Assembly: GCF_003634825.1 (NCBI RefSeq)
Contig: NZ_RBXD01000001.1
Coordinates: forward strand, 1,386,501 to 1,450,500
Direction of reading: 5' to 3'
DNA: 64,000 bases
Source of the DNA: Flavobacterium sp. 123
Lineage (GTDB): Bacteria; Bacteroidota; Bacteroidia; Flavobacteriales; Flavobacteriaceae
Shown here: positions 47,136-50,100 of the stretch, one piece after another
Layout of the letters: each line of letters begins with the position of its first letter
How positions within the stretch are numbered: position 1 is the stretch's first letter
Position numbers and translations under genes: made by a program
Notes under the pieces: model-generated
Told to the model about the DNA's origin: nothing
Seen by the model: the letters and a program-made list of their open reading frames with translations, nothing else
Database searches by the model: none

Positions 47136-50100
47136 ATGAGTACAAAATTTACTGAATACAAAGGACTTGACTTACCAGCTACGGCATCAGAAGTTCTTGA
47201 TTTTTGGAAGAAAGAAAACATATTTGAGAAAAGTGTAACCACTCGCGAAGGCAATCAGCCTTTCGTGTTTTTTGAAGGTCCGCCTTCGGCAAATGGATTG
47301 CCAGGAATACACCACGTAATGGCGCGCGCTATTAAAGATATTTTTTGTAGATATAAAACACAAAAAGGGTTCCAAGTGAAGCGTAAAGCGGGCTGGGATA
47401 CTCACGGATTGCCTGTTGAGCTAGGTACCGAAAAAGAATTAGGAATTACTAAAGAAGATATTGGGAAAAGCATTTCCATTGAAGAGTATAACGAAGCCTG
47501 TAAAAAAACAGTGATGCGTTACACGGATGTGTGGAATGATTTAACTGAAAAAATGGGCTATTGGGTTGATATGGAAGATCCATATGTTACCTATAAACCT
47601 AAATATATGGAAACGGTTTGGTGGCTTTTGAAACAAATCTATAATAAAGATTTGATGTACAAAGGATATACTATTCAGCCTTATTCTCCAAAAGCAGGAA
47701 CAGGTTTAAGTTCTCACGAAGTAAACCAACCAGGAAGTTATCGTGATGTAACGGATACAACCGTTGTGGCTCAATTCCTTACCCCGACCCTCTCCAAAGG
47801 AGAGGGAGACGAGACTGAAAATACAATAATAAAAGCATTCGAACTCAACTCCCTCTCCTTTGGAGAGGGTCGGGGTGAGGACTTTTATTTCTTAGCTTGG
47901 ACGACAACACCTTGGACTTTGCCAAGTAATACAGCTTTGACCGTTGGGCCAAAAATTGATTATGTTTTGGTTAAAACGTTCAATCAATACACTTTCCTTC
48001 CGTCAAACGTGATTTTGGCGAAAAACTTAGTTGGAAAACAATTCGCAAAAGGATTTTTCCCAAGCTCAGAAGCTGCAGATTTTGAAAATTTCAAAGCAGG
48101 AGACAAGAAAATTCCATACCAAATCCTAGCAGAATGCAAAGGAGCGGATTTAGTTGGGATTCGTTACGAACAATTATTACCGTTTGCTTTACCATACCAA
48201 AATCAAGAGAATGCATTCAGAGTAATTTCTGGAGATTTTGTTACTACAGAAGATGGAACAGGAATTGTACATACTGCTCCAACTTTTGGTGCAGATGATG
48301 CAAAAGTAGCTAAAGAAGCTACTCCTGAAGTACCGCCAATGTTAGTTTTAGATGAAAATGGCACGCCAGTTCCGTTAGTAGATTTACAAGGAAAATTCAC
48401 TTCGCACATGGGTGAATATGCTGGTAAATATGTCAAAAATGAATATTATAACGAAGGCGAAGCGCCAGAACGTTCTATAGATGTGGAACTTGCCATTCGA
48501 TTAAAAGAAGAAAATAAAGCTTTCAAAGTAGAGAAATACGTGCACAGTTATCCGCATTGTTGGAGAACAGACAAGCCTATTTTATACTATCCGCTAGATT
48601 CTTGGTTTATAAAAATCACAGAAGTTAGAGATAGAATGTTTGATTTGAACGAATCAATTAACTGGAAGCCAAAAGCAACTGGTGAAGGTCGTTTTGGGAA
48701 TTGGTTGAAAAATGCCAACGACTGGAATTTATCTCGTTCAAGATATTGGGGAATTCCATTACCAATTTGGAGAACTGAAGACAAACAAGAAGAAATTCTG
48801 ATAGGTTCAGTTGAAGAATTATACAACGAAATTGAAAAATCTATAGCGGCAGGATTTCAAACTACGAATCCTTTTAAAGGGTTTGAAATTGGAAACATGG
48901 ATGAAAGCAATTATGATTTAATTGATTTACATAAAAATGTTGTCGATGAAATTACTTTAGTTTCTGCTTCAGGTAAGCCAATGAAACGCGAGGCTGATTT
49001 GATTGACGTTTGGTTTGACTCTGGTTCAATGCCTTATGCACAATGGCATTATCCTTTTGAAAACAAAGATAAAATTGACGGAAACAAAGATTTTCCAGCT
49101 GATTTTATTGCCGAAGGAGTCGATCAAACCCGTGGTTGGTTTTATACTTTACATGCTATTGGAACTTTAGTTTTTGATAAGATTGCCTACAAAAATGTGG
49201 TTTCTAACGGATTAGTTTTGGACAAAAACGGACAAAAAATGTCCAAACGTTTAGGTAATGCGGCAGATCCATTTGAAACATTGGCAGAATATGGACCGGA
49301 TGCTACGCGTTGGTACATGATTTCAAATGCAAATCCTTGGGATAATTTAAAATTTGATTTAGAAGGAATCGCTGAGGTCCGCAGAAAATTCTTTGGAACT
49401 TTATACAATACGTATTCGTTCTTTAGTTTATATGCTAATATTGATGGTTTCAAATACGATGAGGCAGAAATTCCTTTGAGTGAAAGACCAGAAATCGACC
49501 AATGGATTATTTCAGAATTGAATACTTTGATAAAAGATGTTGATAGCTACTATGCCGATTATGAGCCTACAAAAGCAGCTCGTGCTATTTCAGATTTTGT
49601 ACAAGAAAATTTAAGTAATTGGTACGTTCGTTTGTGTCGTCGTCGTTTCTGGAAGGGTGATTATGCACAAGATAAAATTGCTGCTTATCAAACATTATAT
49701 ACGTGTTTATTAAGCATAAGTAAATTGAGTGCTCCTATTGCTCCATTTTTTATGGATAAACTTTACAGAGACTTAACACAGGCAACACAGACTGAGAAAT
49801 TTGATAGTGTACATTTGGCCGAGTTTCCAAAATACGTTGAAAACTTTGTTGATAAATCTTTGGAGAGTAAAATGCAGAAAGCGCAAACTATTTCATCACT
49901 AGTTTTATCACTGCGTAAAAAGGAAATGATTAAGGTACGTCAACCCTTGCAAAAGGTAATGATTCCAGTACTTGACGAGAATCAAAGGGCAGAAATCGAA
50001 GCGGTTTCTGACTTGATAAAAGCGGAGGTAAATGTTAAGGAAATAGTACTTTTGGATGATGCTTCAGGTGTTTTAGTGAAACAGATAAAACCAAATTTCA

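Follow-up and report, generated by a model that had tools for sequence, protein, structure and literature searches.

The gene for isoleucyl-tRNA synthetase (IleRS), an essential enzyme, carries in Flavobacterium sp. 123 a G+C-rich inverted repeat that is translated as part of the protein, raising the question of how such a repeat came to stand within ileS and what keeps it there. The window analyzed here is a stretch of 64,000 nt from the single-contig genome of this strain (2.92 Mb, labeled G000 below); this genome holds ileS as its only match to IleRS at E ≤ 1e-100, and its relatives with names belong mostly to Flavobacterium. A sequence-only reading had regarded the repeat as an in-frame addition of 104 bp, recently inserted by a mobile element. 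The frame is indeed open over 1152 aa; however, the arm-bearing stretch replaces a 20-aa loop found in most of the relatives read, so that the net gain amounts to 19 aa (1152 vs 1133 aa, the empty ileS form of 3,399 nt serving as reference). Codons 215-253, the whole exchangeable loop (Table 1), encode LTPTLSKGEGDETENTIIKAFELNSLSFGEGRGEDFYFL. An assembly artefact was ruled out as an explanation: identical loops were recovered in P0002 and P0003, which derive from other contigs and have 100% and 99% identity across the searched region.

Table 1. Features of the arm-bearing ileS gene in window coordinates.
Feature	Position	Strand	Description
ileS, isoleucyl-tRNA synthetase, 1152 aa	47136..50594	+	one open frame; Pfam tRNA-synt_1 and Anticodon_1
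Exchangeable loop, 39 codons, VVAQF to AWTTTPW, start of the CP1 editing region	47778..47894	+	empty form of relatives 20-22 codons
Left arm, triplex-type, CCCTCTCC-TTT-GGAGAGGG-TCG-GGGTAAGG	47777..47808	-	7/8 triplets; 8-bp stem; + strand reads LTPTLSKGEG
Core NTIIKAFEL, between the arms	47820..47846	+	ileS-specific peptide family of arm-bearing ileS loops
Right arm, triplex-type, CCCTCTCC-TTT-GGAGAGGG-TCG-GGGTGAGG	47849..47880	+	8/8 triplets; 8-bp stem; reads LSFGEGRGE

The left arm and the reverse complement of the right arm are identical at 31 of 32 positions, and a repeat search widens the pair to 47773-47813 and 47844-47884 (41 nt, 90% complementary). With 62.5% and 65.6% G+C the arms stand out from ileS (35.9%) and from the window (33.2%). 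Both contain the hairpin CCCTCTCC-NNN-GGAGAGGG with an AAA or TTT loop, a pattern matched on average 0.00 times in 100 shuffles of the window; the inverted G+C-rich arms and their 8-bp hairpins had been described correctly from the sequence alone. When the loop was recoded synonymously 1000 times, the two 8-bp stems were never reached (sum 16; recodings mean 5.9, maximum 12), showing that the palindromes are a feature of the DNA and no by-product of the peptide. The inverted-repeat score of 28 compares with a mean of 6.1 in 200 recodings and with maxima of 11 and 12 in loops devoid of arms, i.e., 164 empty loops and 25 of a longer, AT-rich, arm-less form (Y form). The predicted RNA fold of 47770-47890 has an energy of -77.1 kcal/mol (z -12.7). 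Across 17 arm-bearing ileS loci, a stem excess over recodings was found at a fraction ≤ 0.01 in nine, was borderline in three (0.037-0.047) and absent in five (L084, L115, L139, L182, and L201); among the arm-bearing valS loci described below, seven of eight reached ≤ 0.03. Judged from sequences and inverted-repeat scores, the other arm-bearing ileS loops mostly combine two arms of different types, and the arm peptides vary (LSKGEG, PLTPEGG, and others) yet stay arm-like.

Read outward, each arm runs from a pyrimidine strand through a 3-nt loop to a purine strand, and on through another 3-nt loop to a third strand, again of purines and in mirror order to the second. Class II intrastrand triplexes are described as the same succession of a pyrimidine, a purine, and a mirrored third purine strand, with stems of 6-15 nt and loops of 1-6 nt (PMC4666352); the ileS arms fall within this range, having stems of 8 nt, loops of 3 + 3 nt, and 8/8 and 7/8 triplets. 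A third strand of this kind should follow its stem. In 82 distinct arms ending in a G-rich tail, drawn from the loci collected, the tail matched the mirror of its own stem at 0.910; re-dealing the tails 1000 times gave 0.822 on average and 0.862 at most. The 18 arms with a GGAGGGG stem fit their own mirror at 1.00 and the GGGGAGG mirror at 0.71. Because a plain hairpin repeat predicts no covariation between tail and stem, this argues for a triplex-like third strand. Each arm therefore fits a potential intrastrand triplex of the BoxC/PIT/TM class, of which E. coli representatives such as CCCTCTCCCTTCCAGGGAGAGGGTCGGGGTGAGGGT are nearly the same as the arms found here (PMC4666352, Table 1). The exact TMECO pattern of E. 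coli, CCCTCNCCCN3-6GGGNGAGGGN3GGGNGAGGG, has 9-nt stems (PMC4666352) and is missed by the ileS arms with their 8-nt stems, which makes the arms a relative of TMECO within the class and excludes TMECO itself. As to the structure within cells, in-cell footprinting in E. coli is reported to have given no stable triplex (PMC4666352).

The site at which this dispersed palindromic repeat pair is translated in frame looks like a permissive loop, as had been supposed. In the two listed alignments with PDB entries of IleRS, four chain residues lie opposite query residues 216-247, a stretch in line with a permissive turn at the loop site. An AlphaFold2 model of IleS reached a mean pLDDT of 42.6, and the structural claims consequently do not rest on the model. 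Separately, the ileS alignments of L197-L201 (genomes G185, G052, G115, G195, and G055) are broken near query residues 311-324 within a long open frame, which suggests insertions in a second IleRS loop.

Searching the own genome for the arm, as advised by the sequence-only reading, returned the stem of the type present in ileS (type A, CCCTCTCC) at 13 places with up to three mismatches, two of them in ileS, whereas the reversed-pattern control gave none. Two of the 13 places look like terminators; further ones, their frames read by eye, precede genes or stand between them (groEL, argG, and cysG-like leaders). One copy is a single in-frame arm in a heavy-metal P-type ATPase (L005, mid-locus, minus strand), translated in another frame (SAPSPLERVGERT) with GSYDF before and SVHVKIN behind it. 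Another stands at the very start of trpF (L010, near 1501-1519), where an N-terminal extension or a GTG start codon may derive from it.

Within the genus, further arm types were named C (CCCTCCCC), B (CCCCTCC), and D (CCCCC). At up to one mismatch the A stem occurs in 63 of 199 genomes, the reversed control in one; the D and B motifs were detected in 80 and 48 of the 199 genomes, respectively. A control shifted by one base too many matched in 10 of 199 genomes, its own control matching too, and all arm counts are pattern-based and miss decayed arms. Besides dispersed copies, the arms form inverted pairs, and the spacers of 28 such pairs differ from one another. An intergenic pair seems to occupy the same place in three species (L008/L011 in G000, L243 in G007, and L245 in G029) with stem changes on both sides, CCCTCCCC-GGGGAGGG vs CCCTCTCC-GGAGAGGG. 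A NamZ-type exo-muramidase of G138 (L253/L256) contains three in-frame arms of the LTPALSKGEGAE type between the protein start and the NamZ domain.

The ileS loop was read in 140 of the 199 genus genomes, own genome included: 98 are empty (20-22 aa), 21 belong to the Y form, 14 bear arms, and 7 are of other kinds; the 59 genomes outside this reading comprise four fragments lacking the loop and 55 genes at 3,399 nt, the empty length. Relatives with an empty loop were thus found as anticipated (98/140), but arm-bearing forms exist in the genus as well (14/140, own genome included) and are scattered. On trees built without the loop, the arm form requires 11 changes in the genus (132 genomes, 13 arm-bearing) and 13 on a wider tree of 204 rows (16 arm-bearing) when starred branches only are considered. 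The Y form, a second 39-aa form free of arms (e.g., L034 and L126), is scattered too, with 10 changes over 22 rows, five of them forced by starred branches; loop exchange can accordingly do without arms. Among 80 named loci, arm-bearing loops also occur outside the genus in Maribacter flavus and an uncultured Croceitalea. By word patterns, 112 of the 120 closest IleS proteins carry the core and the left-arm peptide, in a list ordered by likeness to the arm-bearing query, hence biased toward arms.

All of these arm-bearing loops share a core. The pattern N-x-[IV]-x-[KRD]-A-F-x-[LIV], allowing for slight deviations at positions 1-3, was found in 19 of 19 arm-bearing ileS loci (three of them second copies) and additionally in four ileS loci without arms. 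Identity of the core is 0.63 among these 23 core-bearing loci and 0.32 to the cores of empty loops. Insertion of arms around a local empty core is unsupported, as the core of the arm form resembles that of the nearest empty relative at 0.350 and all empty cores at 0.324, the codon-shuffled baseline being 0.277 with a maximum of 0.314. The idea of the core as an internal part of a mobile pair was ruled out likewise: KAF codons are present in five of five ileS arm-pair spacers (two on the reverse strand) and, with both strands considered, in none of 23 spacers elsewhere. A common core restricted to ileS indicates that the arm-bearing loop constitutes one allele family and not a fresh insertion each time. 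The recent insertion proposed from the sequence does not agree with an arm form and a common core extending over many species and two further genera. The near-identity of the two arms in the window, taken as a sign of recency, may itself still be recent, given that arms of different types prevail in the other loops.

The paralogous valyl-tRNA synthetase provides a second instance. Among 45 genomes read, eight have in-frame arms in valS just before ATTRPE, a proportion that is no frequency, since 30 of the 45 are the nearest matches and the other 15 were chosen in part by length. Two arms are present in G110, G007 (left arm shortened), G153, G025, G181, and G138, and one arm in G169 and G105. 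In an IleS-ValS profile alignment, ATTRPE lies opposite the TTTPW motif of IleRS, and the inserts of both enzymes immediately precede these motifs. Placed on the ileS tree, arm-bearing valS requires 7 changes for 7 of 40 rows. The valS loops of G078 (L322) and G001 (L323) contain a CAACACC tandem repeat in place of arms, so this loop accepts other repeats too.

Arms in ileS go along with arms elsewhere in the same genome. All 14 ileS-arm genomes have further arms compared with 81 of 185 others (Fisher, p 1.9e-5), and at least five in 13 of 14 vs 44 of 185 (Fisher, p 3e-7); these tests ignore kinship, the 185 include the 59 genomes with the loop unread, and ileS and valS copies were subtracted for the arm-bearing 14 alone, a step that weakens the contrast. 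Kinship limits the count of independent events. In 11 independent pairs at a threshold of five arms, 6.0 differed in the same way, 0.0 in the opposite way, and 5.0 showed no difference (median p 0.031); a threshold of ten gave 7.5 vs 0.4 (p 0.016) and a threshold of three a median p of 0.0625. Genomes whose ileS holds the core without arms reach five arms elsewhere in one of four cases, in comparison to 13 of 14 arm-bearing ones (p 0.019). The left-arm type leans toward the commoner type of its genome (p 0.042), a weak link with 4 of 14 genomes contrary (G106, G138, G047, and G181). G165 has 53 arms elsewhere and an ileS loop without arms. From these data we infer that a resident pool either renews the arms or is needed for them to be kept, copying being the presumed route.

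Divergence next to the loop was compared for pairs of genomes at 2-8% divergence, in which the four loop-discordant pairs represent three arm-bearing loci that are independent. Over the adjoining 30 nt these four pairs differ by 11.7% upstream and 8.3% downstream, vs 12.4% and 12.9% in 24 concordant pairs, while at 60-90 nt downstream the discordant pairs are higher (10.8 vs 6.0%). For arm-bearing pairs at 8-12%, the first 30 nt upstream differ by 15.7% in loop-discordant comparisons vs 11.4%. Compared with each other, L035 and L182 differ at 14 and 11 of the 60 nt beside the loop and at 0-6 and 2-8 per 60 nt beyond.

How the repeat entered the gene can be weighed against these results. According to the sequence-only reading it is a recent REP/REPIN insertion mobilized by a RAYT (Y1) transposase, an idea that suits two inverted, multicopy palindromic units of 20-40 bp with near-identical arms, in a genus where 128 of 199 genomes match Y1 (PF01797, E ≤ 1e-6). 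The tie to the transposase nevertheless did not materialize. Y1 is not associated with the presence of at least five arms (41 of 57 vs 87 of 142 genomes, p 0.19), 12 genomes lack a Y1 match at E ≤ 1e-6 in spite of at least ten arms, and among 51 Y1 loci, a part of all Y1 matches, scanned over 0.9-1.5 kb on each side, 49 revealed no arm and two one stray hit each. Around 34 distinct type A arms, to a distance of 8 nt, the REP tag GTAG was never found and CGTC four times, the left arm of the window, with GACG alongside by eye, being one of the four. Given also that the 28 spacers differ and that the form occurs in many species, such an insertion appears very improbable. The single Y1 match above the cut-off in the own genome (L014, G000 1495941-1496264) has no arm near it; by eye, this gene breaks into two frames at an A-run, with an inverted repeat of another kind, around GCAGAATTGCATTCTG, on its flanks.

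Selection of the inserted peptide for IleRS function, with incidental palindromes in the DNA, draws on the core N-x-[IV]-x-[KRD]-A-F being kept over genera and on the 5 of 17 ileS loci whose stems are no better than recodings. It is unlikely in view of the stems of the window allele, beyond the reach of all 1000 recodings, of arm peptides that change and remain arm-like, and of the same motifs standing outside genes. More weight, though somewhat less than an even chance, goes to an old allele spread between species by short-tract homologous recombination with the arms as passengers. Arm-bearing loops of distant species, such as L139 and L182, share the ileS-only core (0.63 among core-bearing loci), the distribution is scattered, with 11 changes needed for the genus and starred branches forcing 13 on the wider tree, divergence clearly rises next to the L182 loop, and some flank bins are higher in discordant pairs. 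Yet over the 30 nt adjoining the loop, divergence in the four discordant pairs does not exceed that in the 24 concordant ones, and the need for arms elsewhere is left unexplained. Exchange between close relatives would leave no trace, and recombination can hold together with the explanation preferred here.

Our preferred reading, to which we assign a probability of roughly 70%, is a head-to-head pair of potential triplex motifs translated in ileS as part of an old alternative loop form, whose arms are renewed or kept through a resident pool. In this reading the two potential intrastrand-triplex motifs flank a peptide core peculiar to ileS, and the loop as a whole, probably tolerated rather than useful, is one among several forms that alternate at a permissive site where the CP1 editing region begins. 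The arm-bearing form is presumably old; its arms may be renewed and kept canonical by copying from the resident pool, through conversion or template switching at hairpins, and would decay once the pool is lost. As a tentative generalization, rather more apt to fail than to hold, the editing-domain loop of IleRS and ValRS might be a recurrent docking place for triplex-forming repeats, with coding copies kept canonical from the resident pool. If so, an essential gene would join the concerted evolution of a repeat family without a transposase. BoxC/PIT/TM repeats have no known transposase, and a coding copy bears on their spread and persistence: the fixed orthologous address and the empty sites in close relatives make gain, loss, and renewal of arms traceable. 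Moreover, a loop of IleRS and ValRS that accepts some 15-20 foreign residues tests naturally how well class Ia synthetases tolerate insertions.

Among known systems, the BoxC/PIT/TM class comes closest, sharing the pyrimidine-purine hairpin with a third purine strand, the CCCTC..GAGGG..GGGGTGAGG layout, multiple copies, and inverted pairs (PMC4666352). The E. coli triplex motif is described as untied to mobile elements, and at five sites it is reported to form inverted pairs (Holder et al. 2015, PMC4666352). It differs in a stem of 9 nt in TMECO vs 8 nt in the ileS arms and in copies reported as always intergenic in E. coli, in contrast to the translated pair in ileS (PMC4666352). TMECO was counted in 262 proteobacterial genomes, and the terms “flavobacter” and “bacteroidetes” are absent from the main text of that study (PMC4666352). 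REPIN/BIME elements with their RAYTs likewise consist of an inverted pair of palindromic units (PMC6006769), whereas the present arms lack an association with RAYT, end in a triplex-like tail, and enclose varying spacers. REPs inside reading frames are known, tRNA synthetases included (Xanthomonas oryzae and two others), as are the RPEs of Rickettsia, and recB was struck at about the same site in two Xanthomonas (PMC3733652). The likeness to the Rickettsia elements perceived in the sequence is borne out, by description, as an in-frame repeat in an intact protein: RPEs and intragenic REPs are short palindromes read in frame, adding 20-30 aa for dimers and groups (PMC3733652). Set against these accounts (PMC3733652), the arms here lack GTAG and have CGTC in 4 of 34, and they occupy the same loop of two paralogous enzymes in many lineages around a common core. 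No report of a translated triplex motif in ileS or valS was found in titles and abstract openings of the triplex, REP, and palindromic-element literature. The class of the motif is known; its setting, a recurrent address in two paralogous enzymes, is new.
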